In this document: piece after piece, positions 1 to 16,348 of the stretch
Position numbering within the stretch: position 1 is the first letter of the stretch
How the letters are laid out: the number at the start of each line of letters is the position of its first letter
NCBI GenBank assembly: GCA_027604185.1
Contig: JADGKB010000195.1
Span: forward strand, 1 to 16,687
Length of the DNA stretch: 16,687 bases
Direction: 5' to 3'
Origin: Boothiomyces macroporosus
Taxonomy: Eukaryota; Chytridiomycota; Chytridiomycetes; Rhizophydiales; Terramycetaceae
The notes under the pieces: generated by a model
What the model was told of the DNA's origin: nothing
What the model saw: only the letters and a program-made list of their open reading frames with translations
Database searches by the model: none
Translations under genes and position numbers: made by a program

Positions 1-1496
1 CGTCACTTGACTATGATTGCTATTGCTGGTACTATTGGTACTGGTCTGTTCTTGAAATCAGGGGATGTTATTGCCCACGCTGGTGCTTTAGGTGCACTTA
101 TGGCATATGTCCTCTCTGGTATTTCTGTATATTGTGTCGTTATGTCTCTAGGTGAAATGGCTACCATGATCCCAGTCTCTGGCTCCTTCAACGAATACGC
201 TGGAAGATTTATAGACCCAGCGTTAGGTTTTGCTTTTGGATGGATGTATTGGTTCCAATGGCTGTTGACTTTCCCTGTAGAAATCCAAGCTGCTGCTGGA
301 TTCTTCTCTCACTGGTCAGGCTTTATTGGAGATAACCCATGGTACATGTTTGTTATTCTCACTGTGTTGTTGACTTTTATCAACCTGATTGCTGTCACAG
401 GGTTTGGTGAAACTGAATACTGGTTATCCTTTGCCAAAATTTTTGCTATCGCATTATTCATTATTGTTGCGATTGGTGTCTTGATTGTCAACCGCAACTA
501 TGGTCAATGGATCCAAACCAGTGGAAAATGGAATCTGGGGTATCTTGGGTGCTATGGTCAGTGCTTCTTGATTAGCGCTGCCTTTGCTTTCGGAGGTACT
601 GAATTGGTCGGTATTACCCCATCAAAGAGTGTCCCAAGAGCTATCAACGGGACTTTCTGGAGAATTGCCATTTTCTACTTTTCAACAATCTTTTTGATTG
701 GGTTAATTAAGCAATTAGCTGATTTAGCGGTGATTGGTGGATTAGACAAGTCGCCATTTGTATTTACTTTGAAAGCGGCTGGTATAGATTTCGCGTCTGA
801 ACTAATCAACTTTGTAGCACTGGTAGCCGTAGTTTCTGCTGCAAACTCATCCGTGTATGCTTGCTCAAGAACTATGATGGCATTGTGTCAAACTGGTAAA
901 GGTCCGGCATTCCTAGGAAAGAACGACAAAAGAGGCGTCCCATTCCTTCAAACTGTTATTGTCGCTACTTTGGGATTTGCTGTCTTTTTTATTACCCTAG
1001 TTCCTGCTTCTGAACAAGATATCAGAGCTGGACATGATGCCTTTGATTTGCTTGTTGGCTGTGTGGGTGCTTGTATTCTTATGATTTGGACAATGATTTC
1101 ATTTACCCACATCCGATTCCGCGCAGCTCTCAAAGCGCAAGGCATTCCACTCTCAGAATTGATTTACGTATCGCCAGTTGGTTTCATTTACCCACATCCG
1201 AGGTGGTTGGTGATTACATTGCAATCATCATCAATGTGTCTGCATTGTTCTTTTCGGGCACTGCCACTTTCTTTGCTGACCCATCAAAGTTCAACATTGT
1301 TGACTTTTTGGACGCTTATATTATCCTCTTGGCCTACCCAATCTTGTATTTTGCTTACAAATTCACTTACAACACCAAAATTGTTTCCCTCACTGAAGTG
1401 GATTTCGTTACTGGCGTTCAATTAAAGAGAGACGTTGTAGAAATCGAAGAGCCTCCAAAATCGTTCTTTGGCAAGCTATTGGATCTCGTTGCATAA
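1..1496 (+). pseudogene. Amino-acid permease copy 1, 5'-truncated by window, decayed by indels
   Basis: Homologous over its whole length to the intact permease at 2533-4113 (YAT family, APC superfamily, 12-helix proton/amino-acid symporter of the plasma membrane). It enters the window at the conserved RHLTMIAIAGTIGTGLF segment, so about 25 residues lie upstream. Frame 1 is open to 1425, but alignment with copy 2 shows damage. About 17 bp are missing after 502; 503-568 then matches copy 2 only in frame 2 (VNGSKPVENGIWGILGAMVS). A 14-bp insertion near 569-582 restores frame 1. An 18-bp deletion removes AGEAAN from the family's AGEAANP.KS.PRA motif. A 20-bp duplication at 1182-1201 shifts the last about 100 residues into frame 3, ending at 1496. 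A working transporter is unlikely. Assembly error is possible but would need several independent events. The stop TAA overlaps AATAAA. Confidence 0.8.
1182..1201 (+). repeat. 20-bp duplication that shifts the frame of permease copy 1
   Basis: The 20 bases at 1182-1201 (starting tttcatttaccc) are identical to 1097-1116, 85 bp upstream in the same gene. Removing exactly this copy gives SPVG-VVGDY in frame, matching SPVGIYGDI of copy 2. It therefore looks like a templated insertion, or an assembly slip of the same size. Confidence 0.8.
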
Positions 1497-2532: not shown

Positions 2533-4113
2533 ATGAACCCGAAAGTTGAAAAAGATGCTGGTGTGTTTGAAGATCAGCCAGATGGGATCCACAGAGGATT
2601 GCAATCGCGTCACTTGACTATGATTGCCATTGCTGGTACTATTGGTACTGGTCTATTCGTGAAATCAGGAGATGTAATTGGTGGTGCTGGTGCTCTAGGA
2701 GCTCTTGCTGCTTATGTTCTAGCCGGAATATCCGTCTTTTGCGTTGTAATGTCACTTGGTGAAATGGCTACCATGATTCCGCTCTCTGGTTCTTTCAACG
2801 AATACGCTGGGAGGTTTATCGACCCTGCTGTAGGGTTTGCTTTTGGATGGATGTATTGGTTCCAATGGCTGCTGACATTTCCTGTAGAAATCCAAGCTGC
2901 AGCAGGCTTTGTTGGGCATTGGTCTGACTTTATCAAGCAAAATCCTTGGTACATGTTTATCATACTAACTTTGCTGTTGACGTTCATCAATTTGGTTGCT
3001 GTAACCGGTTTCGGAGAAACTGAATACTGGCTCTCGTTCATCAAGATATTTACAATTGTAGTGTTCATTATTATTGCTATTGGTATTTTGATTGTCAACA
3101 GAAGTTATGGATTCCAAACTTACACAGTGAATGGATCATCTCCATTTGAGAACGGTGCATGGGGTATTCTCGGTGCTATGGTCAGTGCTTCTTTTGCTTT
3201 CGGAGGTACTGAATTGGTCGGTATCACTGCTGGTGAAGCTGCCAACCCTGCAAAGAGTGTCCCAAGAGCCATCAACGGGACTTTCTGGAGAATCGCCATT
3301 TTCTACTTTTCTACCATCTTCTTGATTGGCTTGATTATGAATGCTACTCTTTTGGACAAAATTGGATCCTCAGGAACACTAAACAAGTCTCCATTCGTGT
3401 TTACTTTGAAGACTGCTGGTATTGGGTTCGCACCTGATTTCATCAACGCCATTGCTTTCATTGCTGTCACCTCTGCTGCAAACTCCTCCATCTACGCCTG
3501 CTCTAGAACCATGATGGCTCTGTGCCAAACTGGAAAAGGTCCAGCTATCCTTGGAAAGAACGACAAGCGTGGTGTTCCATTCTTCCAAACTCTTATTGTT
3601 GCGACTCTTGGGTTCTGTGTGTTCTTTATCACCTTGATTCCATCATCACCAGAAGATATTCAGCTTGGCCACGATCCATTTGACTTGTTGGTAAACTGTG
3701 TCGGTGCTTGTATTTTGATGGCTTGGGGTATGATTTCAGTCACCCACATTCGTTTCCGTTATGCATTGCAAGCTCAAGGAATCCCACTCTCCAACTTGAT
3801 TTACGTTTCTCCAGTCGGAATTTACGGTGATATCTTGTCACTCGTTATCATCTTTGTCGCAATTTTCTTTTCTGGTTCTGCTCCAGTATTCTCTGGCGCA
3901 ACCACATTCAACTACATTGACTTTTTGGACGCTTACTTGGTCATCCTATTCTACCCGCTCTTGTACATTATCTACAAGGTAGTTTACAGAACCAAATTAA
4001 TTCCTCTTAATGAGGTTGATTTGGTCACTGGTGCTCAATTCAAGTCTGACGTTGCTGAGGTTGAAGAAGAACCAAAGTCAATCTGGCAAAAGATCTCTGA
4101 CATTATTGCTTGA
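2533..4113 (+). CDS. Amino-acid permease, YAT family (intact)
   Basis: Complete intronless 526-residue transporter of the fungal/bacterial amino-acid permease family (TC 2.A.3), expected to import amino acids with protons across the plasma membrane. A hydrophilic N-tail (about residues 1-25) is followed by the signature RHLTMIAIAGTIGTGLFVKSG in helix 1, GEMATMIPLSGSF in the helix 2-3 region, FGGTELVGITAGEAANPAKS (the substrate-site and loop motif) and SAANSSIYACSRTMMALC in helix 8. About 12 hydrophobic segments and an acidic C-tail rich in Glu complete it. Length is typical of the family, slightly short. ATG 2533 has an A-rich context (cacaaaATG) and a TATA-like element about 30 bp before it. 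It is a tandem duplicate of the decayed copy at 1-1496, with the EF-hand gene between them on the other strand. Substrate range cannot be read from sequence. Confidence 0.95.
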   Translation: MNPKVEKDAGVFEDQPDGIHRGLQSRHLTMIAIAGTIGTGLFVKSGDVIGGAGALGALAAYVLAGISVFCVVMSLGEMATMIPLSGSFNEYAGRFIDPAVGFAFGWMYWFQWLLTFPVEIQAAAGFVGHWSDFIKQNPWYMFIILTLLLTFINLVAVTGFGETEYWLSFIKIFTIVVFIIIAIGILIVNRSYGFQTYTVNGSSPFENGAWGILGAMVSASFAFGGTELVGITAGEAANPAKSVPRAINGTFWRIAIFYFSTIFLIGLIMNATLLDKIGSSGTLNKSPFVFTLKTAGIGFAPDFINAIAFIAVTSAANSSIYACSRTMMALCQTGKGPAILGKNDKRGVPFFQTLIVATLGFCVFFITLIPSSPEDIQLGHDPFDLLVNCVGACILMAWGMISVTHIRFRYALQAQGIPLSNLIYVSPVGIYGDILSLVIIFVAIFFSGSAPVFSGATTFNYIDFLDAYLVILFYPLLYIIYKVVYRTKLIPLNEVDLVTGAQFKSDVAEVEEEPKSIWQKISDIIA

Positions 4114-5072: not shown

Positions 5073-7475
5073 AAGGAAACTCAGAGTAAACGGTTTACCA
5101 AAATTTTTAACAGAGAATTACTTTCAAAGGATTTGTTATTGTCAATAGCCGGTCATTTGAATTTGATCGAGTATCATCAGTTTAGATTCTCAGGTTGCAA
5201 TGGCTTACCAGCGGAGCCAGAGCTGACATTTCAAGCAATGAAAGAATCCTTACGGAATAACGGTGGAGTATTTATCAGAGCTAAAATGAAACCGGACGAT
5301 TATGAACATTTGCTTTCCGTTTGGGATGTAGAGTTGCTCCCAGTAATGTGTTTTCAAAGAGAGAAACAGTTGGTAATGAAATGGGCAACTTCAGAAAATC
5401 TCATTGACACAAGCTTGATCTTTAGATTGGTTCTTGGCTGCGAATTTACGAGTATAGAGTTCACAAGGTAGCAGGAATGTAATTCTAGAATATTCATGAA
5501 AGCAAGTTTCGTAGGTAGCGAAAGCCTTTTCGATTACACACTTGAAAAAACGATTGACGTGAACAATGCGTTTAGATTCGCTAGTGCCGGCGGCCATTTT
5601 CCTTTAATCAAGAAGTTGCTGCAGTGTGATAGGGTAGATTTACAATTGATGAAAACAAACAGCTTTCCTATTTTGGTTTCAAGGGGATATTTTGATATTG
5701 TATTGTACATATGCGAAAGAGTTGAAGGATGTATTGATGCTCGTTGTCTTCGGTTGGCTGTGAATGGAGGACATTACGAAATGACTAGATATTTTTTACC
5801 GTTTATTGATCCCTCATTAGATAATAACTACTGTATACGATCTGCGATTCGAAATGCGCATTCAGATATTGTAGAATTACTGCTGAATGATGTTAGAGTT
5901 ACTCCAAGCTCAGAAGGGTAAATTTGTATTCACTTTAGGTTGAAATTTGCAATATCCAAAGAGTATATTGAAATAACGAGATTACTGCTCAATGATTCTA
6001 GAGTTGAAGTGGATGGATGTTTAAAGTTGGCCGTGGATGTTGGAAATATTGATATTGTTCAAATGTTAATGGGTAGTTATAGTCTAATTGTAGAACATTC
6101 CTACTACAAACAAAGCAATTCAGTTGTAAAAGAACTGGGAAATTCGAACCCTGCATTATGTCCATTTGAGAATGTAGACGAAAGCAAAAAAGTAGCAACA
6201 CCTTTTAGACAAAAGAAACTAGAAGAAACACCAAAATGTCCAACTTTACCTTCTGGCGAATCAGAAATGCATTTTTCAGAAAAAGAAAAGGATTCAGCTG
6301 TGCTTTTAGCGATTAAAAAGAGTGATGAACACATATTTAACCTGTTATTATCAGATCCTTCCATTAATCCTAGCTTATCAAATAACGCTCCAATTAGGGC
6401 GGCGATAAATGCTCAAAATATGGAAATGGTTGCCAAACTACTTCAAGATAGTCGCGTAGATCCATCAGAATATTCAAACTACTGTTTATATTTAGCAATC
6501 AAACTGAAAAATATCAATATTCTCACTATATTACTGAAACATCCAAAGGTCAATCCAATGTTTATGGAAAACAATGCAATCAGTTTAGCAGTGCAAAGTG
6601 AAAATATAGAAATTTTGATAGCACTATTACACGATGGAAGAGCTGACCCTACTGCCTTAAATCAATATCCACTTAAATTAGCAGTTATGAGGCGGTTACC
6701 CATTTTTGTATCTGTTTTGCTGAAGGATAATAGAGTCGATCCTTGTGCTGATTCTAGCTTTTCATTATGCGAAGCAGTTAGATTACAAAATATTGAGATT
6801 GTGGATATGCTTTTGAAAGATGGACGAGCAAATCCAAACGATAATGGGCAATATTGCATAATGGAAGCATGTAAATCTGGAAACTTGGATATTGTTAAAT
6901 TGCTTGTTGCCGATGAACGCGTAGATCCAGCGTGTAATGATAATGCTCCAATCAGATTTGCTGTGGAAAGCGGGAATTTTGAACTTGTTGAATATTTTCT
7001 GCAATTACCAAATGTCGATCCGAGTGCTAGCAATCAAGACGCAATCCACTCTAGTATAGTTATTGGCAATTACAATATATTCAAACTGCTTTTGCAAGAC
7101 AAACGAGTTGATCCATCACAAAGAGAAGATGAATCGTTGATCAATGCAGTAGCAAGAAACTCTATTCAAATAGTTCAAAGTTTACTTGATGATCCCCGTA
7201 TATCCATCGAACTGGACGATTACTACACTTTTCGATTGGCAATACAGTTGCAAAATGTAGATATCGTAAAGATGTTTTTAATGTGTCCCACTCTGGATCC
7301 AAATGCTGATGACTCTTTTGCTTTACGATATATTTGCTTTGTAGGTAATAGAGAAATACTCAAACTACTTCTTGCAGATGCTCGACTTTTAATTACACAA
7401 TCTGCGCAGGATTCTGCTACAGCTGGCGGTAATCTAGATATATTTGAATTACTTGATGATCATAGAAATAAATAA
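5073..7475 (+). CDS. Ankyrin-repeat protein, 5' end unresolved, two micro-introns
   Basis: A single frame runs from 5073 (just after an in-frame TAA) to TAA 7473-7475, broken only by TAG 5469 and TAA 5919. Both stops lie inside 21-nt GT-AG segments (5468-5488 and 5918-5938). Proposed exons are <5073-5467, 5489-5917 and 5939-7475, about 786 residues in this window. The N-terminal about 130 residues (ELLSKDLLLSIAGHLN) may be a degenerate F-box-like helical region; this is weak. From about 5570 on there are about 19 ankyrin units of 28-31 residues of the kind expanded in chytrids, with consensus N.AI..A...NIEIV..LL.D.RVDPS. They are interrupted once by a hydrophilic linker rich in Glu, Lys, Ser and Pro (about 6105-6295). 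Role: protein-protein scaffold, partner unknown. There is no in-frame ATG before 5238, so a first exon upstream is likely. Confidence 0.82.
5468..5488 (+). other. Candidate 21-nt intron 1 of the ankyrin gene
   Basis: Begins GTAGCAGG and ends AATTCTAG, phase 2. It contains the only in-frame stop between 5073 and 5918. Removal keeps the frame (21 = 3 x 7) and joins EFT-R-IFMKAS. It ends like the homology-supported synthetase intron at 8543-8562 (ATTCTAG). Confidence 0.7.
5918..5938 (+). other. Candidate 21-nt intron 2 of the ankyrin gene
   Basis: Begins GTAAATTT and ends CACTTTAG, phase 2. It contains the only other in-frame stop (TAA 5919). Removal gives VTPSSEG-LKFAISKEY, a slightly short ankyrin unit but similar in spacing to the next unit (RVEVDGCLKLAVD). 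Confidence 0.7.
7467..7472 (+). terminator. AATAAA abutting the stop of the ankyrin gene
   Basis: The last two sense codons AAT AAA form AATAAA directly before TAA 7473-7475. Confidence 0.5.
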
Positions 7476-7505: not shown

Positions 7506-9692
7506 TCATTTCAAGACATTGACAATTCTTTTGCTCTGGTTTACAATCACGTTTTTGTAATGCTCTATCCCCAAATCGTTTAAAACAACTTTTTTCAAGA
7601 GCTCATCTTCCATTTCTCCAATCTGCATTTCTTTGACTCGCTTTCCATTTACAAGTATTCTATAACTGTCGTTTACTTTTTCTGTTTGTGTGTGTTTAGG
7701 AAATTCGAGCATTTTCCCAGGTTGTATCTTTTCATACAATCGTGATGCGGTTTCTGGGGTGAAAATTGACAGCATTTCTAGCAAACGCTTCATACCCTCG
7801 GTACTATAGCTGGTGTGTAAACTTGTGCAAAGCTTCATTAATTCGGTTATTGCCAAATTGAACTGAAAATTTTCAATATATCGGGTTACCTATATCAGTT
7901 GAAATTACTTTGGTTACAGTTGTGTTAGCTAGTCTTTCCTGTTCAAGGTTTACTGTAAAGGGGGTTTCCACTAAATCTTGCACTCTATTCAAGAAACGTT
8001 GCATTCCTACAATCGCAGTTGCATCCCAAGCCAATTCATCTTGGGGAGGCGCCTTGTAAAGAATGAACAATCTCGTAACATCTGTTCCATACTGCTGGAT
8101 AACTTCATGTGGATTGACCCCATTGAATTTACTTTTGCTCATCTTTTCAAATGTAACTTTTACAGGACTAGAAGTTGATTTCGCTCTTGGTTGATTATCA
8201 ACATATTCAATTTCGTTTGATGGAATATAGCGGTGGGTGTTTTGACATTTAAAAGTGATTCCAGTAACCATTCCTTGTGTCAGCAGTTTCTTGAATGGCT
8301 CTCCTTTTGGAATATCAATCAGCTTGATATCCGTTAGAAATTTGGATATGAATCGGGCATACAATAAATGCATTATTGAATGTTCTATTCCTCCAACGTA
8401 GATGTCAACTGGAAGATTGTTCAGCTTTCCCTTTGAAATCAATTCTTTGTTGTTGTGAGAATCTAGAAATCTTATCCAGTACCAAGACGAGTCCACAAAC
8501 GTATCCATCGTATCACTTTCATATCGCGAATCTGCCTTGCACCTAGAATTAATATAAAGTACTTGGGACATTCTGGGGTTTCATTTTTATTCTCTAGTTT
8601 CAAAGGCAAATCAGATTCGGGAATAGGCACGGCTTTACATGATGGACAATGAATGACTGGAATGGGAGTTCCCCAATATCGCTGTCTAGATACTAACCAA
8701 TCGCGTAGCTGATATTTAGTTACTGGTGGATAGCTGTCTTTTGATAGACTTGCTGAGTAGTTGATGCCATATTTATCAATGTATTTTTGATGTGTGGGAT
8801 TATTGTACTCTCCCAATTCACATCCTTCGATATCATTTAACATAAACCTCGTTATATGTATAGGGATCTCCTTACACTCTGAGTTTGATGCGTAAAGCCC
8901 AGTGAATATTCCATCGATTTCTTTTGAAGAATTGCGGTCCAGTAATACACTGTCAACATACTGTTTAATTTCCGGGTTCTTTCTCAAATCTTTAACCAAC
9001 TGATGACTCAGTCCAATGGCTATGAAATGCCCACTTGTAACTGATTCAGATGAAAAGCATTCCAGGGTTTGTCCTTTAACGGTGAATTTGATCAGCCTTC
9101 CGGTTTTTGGTTTAATCCAATTTCGCTGTTGCTGCTTTACAGCCTCTGGCCAATCCAACTCATCTAAATCCTTGTATAATCTCTCCGCATACTGTGTGAT
9201 TTTAAAATACCATTGCTTCAAGTATTTCTTTTCCACAAGGGCTCCGCTACGCTCACCTTTTCCGTTAATCACTTGTTCATTCGCCAAGACAGTCTTGTCC
9301 ACGGGATCCCAATTAACTACACTCTCTTTCTGATAAATCAATCCCTTTTCGTACAGTTTCAAGAATATATATTGAGTCCATTTGTAATATTTGGGATCGC
9401 TGGTGTACAATTCATTTGTCCAGTCAAAATCAATATTCATTTTCAAAAGCTGATTCTTCATTTGACTGATATTATGATTGGTCCATTCTTGCGGGTCTTT
9501 ATTGTTGAATTTGGCGGCATTCTCTGCTGGTAATCCAAAACTATCCCATCCTATGGGATGCGTTGTCTTGTAAAAGCGAGAAATTACATCCGCGATAGTG
9601 TATACTCGTAGATGCCCCATATGCAGCAACCTGTTTAGTTGAATTCGTTACCCTGAGGGATATGGGAACATGGCGAGGATATATTTTTTCAT
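7506..9692 (-). CDS. LARS2: Leucyl-tRNA synthetase, bacterial/organellar type, four exons
   Basis: Class I aminoacyl-tRNA synthetase that charges tRNA-Leu, probably in mitochondria. Exons (minus strand): 9692-9652, 9630-8563, 8542-7909, 7889-7506; 708 residues. Order: MFPYPSG and HMGH (residues 17-20, HIGH motif), GWDSFGLPAENAA, the connective peptide, SRQRYWGTPIP, a CPSC...CPKC zinc knuckle pair, DTMDTFVDSSWYW, KMSKS (503-507), an anticodon-binding helical region and a C-terminal domain with VNGKRV. The protein is shorter than the usual 850-900. The editing insertion (about 184-323) is about 50 residues short. Its threonine-rich motif (TTRPDT in E. coli) reads SSESVT, and the HD of GHDQRD reads HQ, so proofreading is probably lost. 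No clear targeting presequence precedes the ATG. It converges on the ankyrin gene (30 bp between stops) and diverges from the hydrolase (36 bp between ATGs). Confidence 0.93.
7890..7908 (-). other. 19-nt intron 3 of the leucyl-tRNA synthetase
   Basis: Minus strand: begins GTAATTTC, ends TGATATAG, phase 0. Removal joins TVTK to VTRYIENFQFNLAITELM, which fits the conserved helix (family pattern K.VT..IE...FN.AI..LM). Without removal the frame stops at 7873. A 46-nt alternative ending at TTTTCAG also keeps frame but deletes this helix. Confidence 0.88.
8543..8562 (-). other. 20-nt intron 2 of the leucyl-tRNA synthetase
   Basis: Minus strand: begins GTACTTTA, ends AATTCTAG, phase 2. Removal shifts frame and rebuilds ECPKCKADSRYESDTMDTF, the second zinc knuckle followed by the invariant ETDTMDTF-type motif. 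Neither frame gives this without splicing. Confidence 0.92.
9631..9651 (-). other. 21-nt intron 1 of the leucyl-tRNA synthetase
   Basis: Minus strand: begins GTAACGAA, ends CTAAACAG, phase 2, with a branch-site-like ACTAAAC. It splits the universal FPYPSG..HMGH segment; removal gives MFPYPSGLLHMGHLRVY exactly as the family requires. Confidence 0.92.
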
Positions 9693-9728: not shown

Positions 9729-11704
9729 ATGAAGTTGCTTTGTGCGGTGATCGGGATAGCTCTAGCGAAAAGAAAGATGGATTTCGAATCGGAACTGCGA
9801 TCTAAATGGTTTACGGAATTCCAAAAACAAGTAGATCTTACGAAAGCTTATCCAGAAGCATTTAGTTCGATTTTTTACAAACTGGACGGCGATCGTGAAG
9901 TATACGTAGATTTCAATAACGGCACATGTTATACTTTGGATGGAGAATCGAAAGGCGCTCCAGACTCGGATACGCTATGGAGAATAGGAAGCGTGACAAA
10001 GATGTACACTGCAAGTGCAGCATTTCAATTGATTGAGCAAGGCTTATTGGATAGAACTGCACCAGTAGCAGACTACCTGCCTTGGTTGCAAGATCAAGTC
10101 AAAGAGCAAAATCTATTGGTTCAAGATTTGTTGCAGCATACAACTTCATTTGACGAAGGAGGTCTTTGGAATAAATGGCCAGTTGATTTCCCACATTCTC
10201 CAACACCGCACAAGGACAGTTTTCAGAAATTTACTACAGATTATATTGATAAAGTCGGGGTTTTTGGTGGACCAAGCTATTCTAACCAAGGTTGGGTGCT
10301 TCTCGGGGCTATAGTTGAAGAAATAGTTGGAAACCCTCTAGGTGATTACCTAAAACGAAACATCTTTAGCAATCTGGATATTAAATCTAGTGGATTTTCC
10401 TATCAACAGCCGAATTTAAATAATCTGTGCTTTTCAAAAGATGCGAAAGCAAACCTTGAATTGTTTGATGTTGAAGGGTATGCTACTGGTGATATGGTAT
10501 CAAATCCCAAAGATGTATTGCGTTTCTTTCGTGCAATGTTGAACAACGGTAAAGGAATCTTCAAATCTCAATCAACCATGGATTTAATGAAGAAGCCAAT
10601 GTATTATCACGATTGGTATGGTGAAAATGGATATATTAATGGGTTTGAGTTTCAACAACATGGAAGCATAAAGATTTGGACCAAAGGTGGGGCGATTCCT
10701 GGGTTCTCTTCTTTTGCATTTATCATTCCAGAATTTAATGAAGCTGGAGTGTTCTTTAGCTCTCCTCTCATTCACCATTACCCAAAGGCCCTAAACGCGT
10801 ATTTAAACATTCTGCATCCCAGCGAATTGAATGCTGTATCTTCAAAGTACAAGTTTGCGCAACCAACTCTGCAAAATATTGCTGCTACTCAAAAAGTAAA
10901 GGTGCTCTAGAATTAAAACAGGGACATTTTAGAAACAAGAGAACTATTTGGCATGGGGTTTTAAAGTATTTCATGATGCCATATCCTCCATTTATTATCC
11001 GTCCTCTTGCAAATTCCAACAAGATTGCAGTAATACTAAACTCTATGCAATACAACTTGCAACTAGTAGAGAAAACAAATAGTTCTGACCCGCTACCAAA
11101 TAATATTTTACTGTTTCAAGACCTAAATCGAACGCTGTCAATATCAGTCATCTTTCAGAAAAAGAGAATTAGTAAAATAGTAGTATCTGGCAGTTCGCAA
11201 GGAACCCAGACTACACACTACCCAAAGACTCTACTCGATGGTTATTTTCTTGTTCAAGCTGGGCTACTGGTAAATGCAGGGACGCATTTACTGTCATTTG
11301 TTTTAGCATTCCTGGCAATCAAGAGATTTGTTGAAAGTAAATCAGAAAACGACGAATCAACACCACTTATTAATGCAGCACTTGGAAGCAACCTATGCCA
11401 AAGGATTATTGATATCTTGGCCGTTACTACTCCTTTATTTAGTTTGCTATTTCTTTCCATAGTGGTTAAACTGTTAAACAGCGGGAGTGTATCTATTGAA
11501 GACAAGCCAAGAATTATTGTTGCTCAAGTATCCCTCTTACTATTTATAATCTTTATAGGATTAATTGTACTGGTAACTGGTGTTGGCTGCTTCAAGAAAG
11601 CCAAAGTTGCTAATCGGTGGTTGATCCTCCCCATTGCAGTACTTCAGGTATTTGGCTTGATTCAAGTGATTAATCTGAATTTAATCCAATTCAGAGTATG
11701 GTAA
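9729..11704 (+). CDS. Beta-lactamase-related serine hydrolase with C-terminal membrane domain
   Basis: Serine hydrolase of the class C beta-lactamase/penicillin-binding-protein fold (LACTB-like in eukaryotes). The weakly hydrophobic N-terminus (MKLLCAVIGIALA) could be a signal peptide. Catalytic motifs: SVTK (S88, K91), YSN (Y184-S185-N186) and TKGG (318-321, followed by AIPGF), the equivalent of the KTG triad. The frame shifts near 10900. A 26-nt GTAAAG...CAG intron (10896-10921) or a 20-nt GTGCTC...CAG intron (10902-10921) joins it to the downstream half, giving 649 or 651 residues. The join yields KGHFRNK, which resembles the G.Y.N start of the small domain that often follows this fold. 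The second half then has four hydrophobic helices: about 11245-11325, 11410-11475, 11510-11590 and 11615-11690. Substrate unknown; probably a membrane-anchored peptidase or esterase. Convergent with the first stress-protein gene (36 bp between stops). Confidence 0.88.
10896..10921 (+). other. Micro-intron of the hydrolase gene, 26 or 20 nt
   Basis: Two nested donors share one acceptor (AAAACAG, ending 10921): GTAAAG at 10896 (26 nt) or GTGCTC at 10902 (20 nt). Both correct the frame and differ by two codons (V-K). GTA donors predominate among the other introns here, while 20 nt fits their size better. Confidence 0.65.
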
Positions 11705-15209: not shown

Positions 15210-15764
15210 GTTAAAACGCCTCTTAAAAAGGTACAATACTCATATGAAGTCATGCATGTTGTAAAAAACAAGCATGCAGCCTTTGAAACAAAAGTGTACT
15301 GTGTATATATGTACATTTTCCAAGGTATGACACAAAAAGCACTGGCAGAATTAAACGGTAAAGGAATTGGTACTATCAATAGTTGGATTAAGGAGTATTT
15401 TGATGGAACATTAAGGGAAAAGAGTATCAAACGTCAGCCTCGAAAGTTTTCCTGTGCAGAAAGACAATGGATTATCGCGTATTACAACAAGAACCCCACC
15501 GCCTTTCTCGAAGAATGTGTAGAAGAATTTAACAAATGTTATTTAGAGAAAATATCTGTATCTTCAGTGTGGAGAATATTGGATCAGGAAGGTTTTACAT
15601 ACAAAACAGTTGAACGAAGAGCTTTACAAATCAAACTATCTGATGTTCATCGTTTTTGCAATGAAATTAATCTCTTTAATTGGACCAAGGCTCATCTTGT
15701 ATTCCTAGACGAGGTCTCATTTGATAACAGAGGAATGTTACGTCCACGCGGGTATGCATTGAAA

Positions 15765-15793
15765 GGTAAAATGCTTATTCACCCAATGGTAAA
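15765..15793 (+). repeat. 6-bp direct repeats bounding a 23-bp insertion in the transposase
   Basis: GGTAAA at 15765-15770 and 15788-15793; the unit is 23 bp, so it breaks the frame. Confidence 0.7.
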
Positions 15794-16348
15794 CGATTGA
15801 TTTTCCGAGGTGAATTTGTTCGGCGTGCACGAGTATCTTTTTTAGCATTCATAGGACAAAATGGAGTATTAGACTATTATCAAACTGATGGTACTTTTAC
15901 CAGATTGAAATTCATGCACTGTATGAAACTTTTTGCTAAGAACTGTTCCCAAGTACAAAAATATCCTGGTTATTGTTCAATATGGATTTTAGATGGGGCA
16001 AGGATACATACTGATGAAAATCTTGTCTACTACCTACGTTCATTTGGTATTATTCTTATCTATCTTCCAGCCTATTGTCCTTTCTTTAATCCAATAGAAT
16101 TTTTCTTTGGCATGGTTAAACAACGCTTTAAAAAGTTGTACAAGGAAGGGGAAAATCAAACCCTCTCAATTTTCGTCAGTGAAATAATGAACAGTTATAT
16201 AAACTATGATTTTACCAAAATATTCAACAAATGTGGTTACAGATTTGCTAAGGGGTTTGACCCGTCAGCATCTGACACTACGTTAAATCAGGAGTGGGAA
16301 AACCATAATTTCAATGAGAGCAATATGCATCTTGATTGAGGTGTTATC

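Follow-up and report, generated by a model that had tools for sequence, protein, structure and literature searches.

What do the repeated breaks in the reading frame of a leucyl-tRNA synthetase (LeuRS) gene represent, and is whatever causes them peculiar to this gene or common in its genome? The gene lies on the minus strand of a 16,687-nt stretch of DNA (the window), which is contig 195 of an assembly of 15,203,306 bp in 216 contigs. From the window alone, the original prediction placed three GT-AG introns of 21, 20 and 19 nt in the gene and expected introns of about 20 nt genome-wide, removed by a spliceosome adapted to them. Our analysis of the DNA indicates that the breaks are very probably U2-type spliceosomal introns of a widespread 19-22-nt class, in what is probably a zoosporic fungus.

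The three LeuRS introns proved exact in coordinates, length, GT-AG ends and strand, and the gene reads as follows:

9652-9692, minus strand: LeuRS exon 1, with the ATG at 9692; MKKYILAMFPYPSG; gapless against a solved LeuRS
9631-9651, minus strand: LeuRS intron 1, 21 nt, GTAACGAATTCAACTAAACAG; in-frame TAA; atypical branch region (CTAAA)
8563-9630, minus strand: LeuRS exon 2, from the reading of open reading frames (ORFs) and the TIGR00396 score of the joined protein
8543-8562, minus strand: LeuRS intron 2, 20 nt, GTACTTTATATTAATTCTAG; branch TTAAT; also called by the blind predictor described below
7909-8542, minus strand: LeuRS exon 3, from the ORF reading and the TIGR00396 score of the joined protein
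7890-7908, minus strand: LeuRS intron 3, 19 nt, GTAATTTCAACTGATATAG; branch CTGAT; a 28-nt alternative uses another donor
7506-7889, minus strand: LeuRS exon 4, with the stop at 7508-7506; from the TIGR00396 score of the joined protein

Joining the exons across 9692-7506 (minus strand) yields a single frame of 708 aa that scores 677.5 bits against the NCBIfam model TIGR00396 (leuS_bact), above its cut-off of 548.4; without splicing, the three ORFs reach 380.3, 243.8 and 19.9 bits. By this score the predicted enzyme belongs to the bacterial-type (mitochondrial) class. Aligned to 6q89, a solved LeuRS, the joined protein shows no gap near the junction of intron 1 (MFPYPSG/LLHMGH), and at intron 2 it is gapless from CPKC on; both of these segments, FPYPSG-LLHMGH and CPKC, had been read as restored by splicing. 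For intron 1 it is this protein homology, and not the branch site, that supports the predicted intron. At 708 aa the protein is shorter than the best solved match (877 aa), its residues ~203-310, in the editing-domain region, do not align to the solved LeuRS, and its C-terminal part aligns weakly; for these reasons its editing may be reduced.

To look beyond this gene we applied a simple gene predictor, for which long ORFs served as the training set and which allowed introns of 12-150 nt, to a main sample of 216,687 bp comprising the window and 100 kb each of contigs 1 and 2. In a blind run, with a flat length prior and no motif except the end dinucleotides, 59 GT-AG introns of 19-22 nt were called (9, 26, 12 and 12 by length). 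The control pairs GA-TG, CT-AC, TG-GA, GC-AG, AT-AC and GT-AC gave 5, 3, 5, 8, 7 and 3 introns of these lengths, respectively, so that the enrichment was about tenfold and specific to GT-AG. A comparable blind run over 66.5 kb (20 of 46 further loci, with two locus pairs overlapping by ~1 kb each) returned nine GT-AG introns of 19-22 nt against 0, 1, 0 and 1 in the controls. Only the end-dinucleotide comparison over 216,687 bp and the no-motif part of the 66.5-kb test are truly blind; motif-guided counts are biased to the motif, and length-guided counts also to 19-22 nt. Read with that bias, a motif derived from the blind introns and applied to the main sample with no length preference placed 138 of 174 introns at 19-22 nt, and motif and length preference together placed 199 of 206 there and seven outside, with introns in 65 of the 86 predicted genes. 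Extrapolated to the whole genome, the number of introns would be ~3,800 from the blind excess or ~14,000 from the guided count. An earlier and simpler scan peaked at these lengths as well (13, 20, 8 and 9 candidates at 19-22 nt) but counted overlapping candidates repeatedly and was superseded by the blind predictor, and in-frame stops in 21-nt introns were not used as evidence because the predictor is blind to stop-free ones. The predicted introns therefore have a narrow length mode of no more than 25 nt in samples of 217 kb and 66.5 kb from the 15.2 Mb. The expectation of ~20-nt introns across the genome was borne out by a peak in each of these samples, and by the Prp8 and MSH2 genes described below.

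The blind introns also resemble each other in sequence. They begin with GTA in 54 of 59 cases and end with YAG in 55; position +5 is T in 33 and G in just five. The full branch motif YTRAY is found in 36 of the 59, compared with 22% of shuffled interiors, and within these 36 the putative branch A is followed by 5 or 6 nt in 33 introns and preceded by 13-16 nt in 34. The guided set, itself selected with that motif, gives YTRAY in 138 of 199 introns, and in 129 of the 138 the A is followed by 5-6 nt. A typical intron thus starts with GTAAT and has a YTRAY branch motif whose A is preceded by 13-16 nt and followed by 5-6. Within the window, LeuRS introns 2 and 3 carry the full YTRAY.

The original prediction had also proposed a survey for short GT-AG segments whose removal restores conserved proteins. 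In addition to the 19-22-nt peak, 25 of 26 exon junctions are collinear without a gap across Prp8, MSH2, IFT140 and an amino-acid permease (LeuRS excluded). The references were solved homologues or the window's intronless permease paralogue; junctions in MSH2, IFT140 and Prp8 were judged by eye on the alignments, and the count leaves out the predicted Slu7, SF1 and U2AF65 gene models. The Prp8 gene of contig 58 contains five 19-22-nt introns, all with gapless joins against human Prp8; in MSH2 there are eight, none of which falls at a gap in the alignment to a solved Msh2. The C-terminal half of IFT140 contains nine such introns, eight of them at gap-free places; the single miss (residue 41) falls at an alignment gap. 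Finally, the permease gene of contig 77 (locus L005) has four introns, all collinear with the window paralogue at 2533-4113, and between two of them, both of 19 nt, lies a 15-nt exon whose five residues the paralogue keeps.

These data bear on the possibility that the frame breaks stem from errors of sequencing or assembly, or from the decay of pseudogenes, with GT-AG segments occurring by coincidence. The window does contain a genuinely broken gene, the first amino-acid permease copy (1-1496). However, errors would not be GT-AG-bounded, 19-22 nt long and equipped with a branch site (59 introns against 3-8 in the controls), nor would they be expected in genes as conserved as Prp8 and MSH2 with their exons joining without gaps, and we consider this explanation extremely unlikely.

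We then asked which parts of a spliceosome the genome encodes. Searches for small nuclear RNAs (snRNAs) gave two matches for U2 (142.2 and 135.4 bits), one for U6 (62.2 bits) and one for U1. The sites read in them, AUACUUACCUGG (U1), GUAGUAUCUGUUC (U2) and ACAGAGAAGAUUAGCAUGGC (U6), are the canonical pairing sites. The U1 site as read therefore keeps a C able to pair with G at +5, though most introns are without that G. The two U2 genes (L006 and L007) have clearly different 3' halves and a branch-recognition region common to both. All seven splicing protein families searched were matched: Prp8, Prp18, Slu7 and SF1 are present in the genome, as are a U2AF65 homologue that scores below its cut-off, Cir_N/Cwc25 and Isy1. 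The Cir_N-domain protein of contig 49 has the N-terminus MGGGDLNLKKSWHP, with Gly2-4 (the MGGG plug), Trp12 and Trp24, the residues named in PMC9505925, which fits a plug-bearing Cwc25. Cir_N (Cwc25) matches at contig 49:3542-3652, the copy read here, and contig 100:5137-5247 score equally and are either a duplication or separately assembled alleles. In Isy1 the first ~33 residues are unalignable to the human protein, and the gene model is doubtful at its first intron. At the start of this gene (L047 1224-1400) a 49-nt GT-AG stretch contains two branch-like motifs and could represent either a pair of neighbouring short introns or a single enlarged one. Among the parts read, the Isy1 N-terminus alone is a candidate for a difference in the machinery, with the gene model itself uncertain. 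The proposal of an adapted spliceosome thus stands in one respect, as the introns are highly standardised, and is not supported in another, since the spliceosome parts that were read are almost all canonical.

Could the segments be removed without a spliceosome, by elimination from the DNA of the kind known in ciliates or by ribosomal bypassing? Either process would likewise restore the frame. Neither predicts the specificity for GT-AG, and the arrangement GT...YTRAY...YAG is spliceosomal grammar in a genome with U1, U2, U6, Prp8, SF1, Slu7 and Prp18, so we give this idea almost no credence. What is seen instead corresponds to U2-type introns: excision of GT-AG segments restores the frame, a branch motif lies near the 3' end, and U1, U2 and U6 have their canonical pairing sites. 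Splicing at the RNA level, the identity of the branch A and the order of events are what we infer from this.

Two further introns of the window are predicted in an ankyrin-repeat gene, and guided prediction adds two candidates:

5468-5488, plus strand: first intron of the ankyrin-repeat gene, 21 nt, GTAGCAGGAATGTAATTCTAG; in-frame TAG
5918-5938, plus strand: second intron of the ankyrin-repeat gene, 21 nt, GTAAATTTGTATTCACTTTAG; in-frame TAA; also called by the blind predictor
6073-6093, plus strand: further candidate in the ankyrin-repeat gene, 21 nt, GTAGTTATAGTCTAATTGTAG; from motif- and length-guided prediction only, unproven
10902-10921, plus strand: candidate intron, 20 nt, GTGCTCTAGAATTAAAACAG; a 26-nt alternative starts at 10896; from guided prediction, unproven

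The candidate at 6073-6093 is unproven because its length is a multiple of three and the frame is open through it; that at 10902-10921 would link an ORF for a PF00144 serine hydrolase (9729-10910) to the next ORF (10973-11704).

Several observations weigh against a general class of 19-22-nt spliceosomal introns, the evidence for which is DNA sequence. At the level of single introns, the blind run and the flat-length motif-guided run each recovered just two of the five window introns exactly (LeuRS intron 2 and the second ankyrin intron). In these two runs, neither of which had a length preference, LeuRS intron 3 came out at 112 nt and 76 nt, and the first ankyrin intron at 30 nt and 141 nt. 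LeuRS intron 1 was missed by all predictor runs, the length-guided one included; it falls in the 1st percentile of the genome's splice-site model. YTRAY is only partial in three of the five window introns (LeuRS intron 1 and both ankyrin introns), and 23 of the 59 blind introns are without the full motif. At LeuRS intron 2 the 6q89 alignment has a gap of 5 residues, situated three residues before the junction, and LeuRS intron 3 has a GT-AG rival of 28 nt, with a donor 9 nt upstream, that keeps the frame. As for the machinery, the U1 match (68.8 bits) is 0.7 bit under the Rfam gathering score of 69.5, and the U2AF65 homologue, whose gene is split by introns, reaches 230.7 against a curated cut-off of 310.3 when scored exon by exon. 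Lastly, the minimum distance between 5' splice site (5'SS) and branch is near 50 nt in humans (PMC6692369), and Cryptococcus introns of <40 nt are spliced poorly (PMC11913375), so that nothing found here explains how a near-canonical machine would work on ~14 nt.

A further possibility is that longer introns are the norm with a short minority, or that the true LeuRS introns are longer in-frame alternatives. In-frame GT-AG alternatives of greater length do exist for each of the five window introns, two of which were also drawn longer by the runs that had no length preference, as described above. For LeuRS intron 3 a length of 28 nt is plausible: it would alter only TVTKVTRY to TVTRY, and the structure alignment to 6q89 scores below zero in this region, too weak to choose between 19 and 28 nt. 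The original prediction that exon ends are fixed to the base consequently does not hold for intron 3; we prefer 19 nt there because it fits the length and branch pattern of the genome. Against longer introns more generally, the main sample gave 89 GT-AG introns of at least 25 nt compared with 110-130 in the controls, so that there is no overall excess of longer introns. The longer alternatives at LeuRS introns 1 and 2 would remove conserved residues, and in the contig-77 permease a longer intron would swallow the 15-nt exon whose residues the intronless paralogue retains. We therefore allow this explanation a slight chance, and continue with 19-22 nt as the prevailing intron length.

The remainder of the window contains genes of other kinds. 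The first amino-acid permease copy (1-1496, plus strand) carries a disruption near 1190, next to a direct repeat of 16 nt, catttacccacatccg, that occurs at 1100 and 1185; the tandem copy at 2533-4113 is intact and intronless. A tandem array of five ORFs for universal stress proteins (Usp) occupies 14997-11741 (minus strand). At 15252-16339 (plus strand) a DDE_3 transposase of the Tc1/mariner kind is spread over two frames and resembles a degraded mobile element.

To which lineage does this genome belong? Expansions of Zn2Cys6 proteins mark fungi, and the 15.2-Mb assembly has 47 Zn2Cys6 matches, which fits the earlier reading of the DNA as fungal. Pfam scans of 20 long exons (E up to 1e-5; 7 with matches and 13 without) revealed a myosin with a long myosin-II-like tail. 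Prp8 scores higher against the human protein (4136 bits) than against fission-yeast spp42 (3782 bits) and the chains of budding yeast (3180 bits). Together, the Zn2Cys6 count, the myosin and the Prp8 scores suggest an early-branching fungus, and the presence of an IFT140 gene suggests a flagellum and thus a zoosporic one.

Introns of comparable size have been described in other lineages, with lengths of 16-17 nt in mikrocytids, 15-16 nt in heterotrich ciliates and 18-21 nt in the chlorarachniophyte nucleomorph (PMC10245619), in agreement with the precedents of nucleomorphs and some ciliates that had been named for this window. The contig might accordingly stem from one of these owners of ultra-short introns and not from a fungus, and the nucleomorph range does overlap 19-22 nt. 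The size of the assembly and its 47 Zn2Cys6 matches speak against such a source, as do mikrocytid introns of 16-17 nt and the presence here of Slu7 and Prp18, both reported as undetected in Stentor (PMC9505925). An origin from a nucleomorph, ciliate or mikrocytid, which appears very unlikely, was rejected on the strength of Slu7, Prp18 and the Zn2Cys6 matches.

If the introns are spliced as proposed, U1 would pair with the short 5' site GUAAU, which in most introns has no G at +5. YURAY, whose branch A lies 13-16 nt downstream, would be occupied first by SF1 and afterwards by U2, and U6 would take the place of U1 on the same few nucleotides of the 5' site. Branching would produce a lariat loop of ~14-17 nt, and the nearest YAG, beginning 3-4 nt past the branch A, could be joined at once. 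In budding yeast, Slu7 is reported to be less needed when the branch and the 3' site are close. Such constant spacing points to recognition of the whole intron as a single unit of fixed length. Such introns might escape the distance limit of the human system most simply if the U6/5'SS and U2/branch helices stayed short instead of being extended, which would let both ends fit the active site.

Of the known systems, the chlorarachniophyte nucleomorph is the most similar in length, with a near-identical band and a narrow distribution. However, it is the vestigial nucleus of an endosymbiont with an extremely reduced genome, whereas the present genome has 15.2 Mb, a flagellar gene and a match for every splicing factor searched. 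Mikrocytids share the extremely narrow length class and some motifs (PMC10245619), but Mikrocytos mackini has 224 predicted introns, compared with thousands here by extrapolation, and mikrocytids have 17-19 spliceosomal proteins, compared with seven of seven families searched that were matched here (U2AF65 below cut-off). A strongly reduced genome or spliceosome of the mikrocytid or nucleomorph type was not found in these 15.2 Mb, judged from those seven families and not from a full inventory.

Stentor resembles the present genome in having tiny introns genome-wide with a near-fixed branch A (the 10th of 15 nt, 5 from the end), and in its GUA 5' end, conserved U2/U6 recognition sites and retention of SF1 and U2AF2 (PMC9505925). 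It differs in length (15-16 nt, against 19-22 nt and a YTRAY branch motif here) and in its machinery: Slu7 and Prp18 are undetected, Cwc25 is without the GGG plug and the Isy1 N-terminus is non-conserved, features conjectured to avoid steric clashes (PMC9505925). Three of these four features are not shared, as Slu7, Prp18 and the Cwc25 plug are all present here; for the fourth, the unaligned ~33 residues of Isy1 come from the doubtful gene model mentioned above.

Among fungi, Cryptococcus neoformans is likewise rich in short introns. Its mean of 63 bp was termed relatively short among 644 genomes (PMC8476143), and another study gives an average of 56 nt with the bulk at 40-100 nt, calls introns of <60 nt ultra-short and bins a small group of <40 nt as 20-40 nt (PMC11913375). 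Isolated fungal introns of 20-40 nt are therefore already in print; unlike in Cryptococcus, 19-22 nt is the sole enriched class that we saw. A fungus with an intron mode at 19-22 nt was absent from the matches listed in a search of titles and abstract openings of the openly licensed literature. We think it likely that this is an intron-rich, flagellated fungus in which the whole intron population has collapsed to 19-22 nt with a spliceosome that is unreduced and nearly canonical.

In practical terms, read mappers and gene finders that assume a longer minimum intron would probably misread most intron-bearing genes of this organism. Ultra-short introns are known in an endosymbiont remnant, ciliates and reduced parasites, and in the papers cited here have been discussed in terms of genome erosion, altered branching or missing second-step factors. 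A fungus that has such introns together with Slu7, Prp18, SF1, a U2AF65 homologue and the plug of Cwc25 would show that none of these is a necessary condition, and would offer structural biology a near-standard spliceosome that handles a 5'SS-branch distance of ~14 nt. If the collapse of the intron population is real, the minimum 5'SS-branch distance of ~50 nt would not be intrinsic to the spliceosome, and tiny introns would need neither genome reduction nor the loss of second-step factors.

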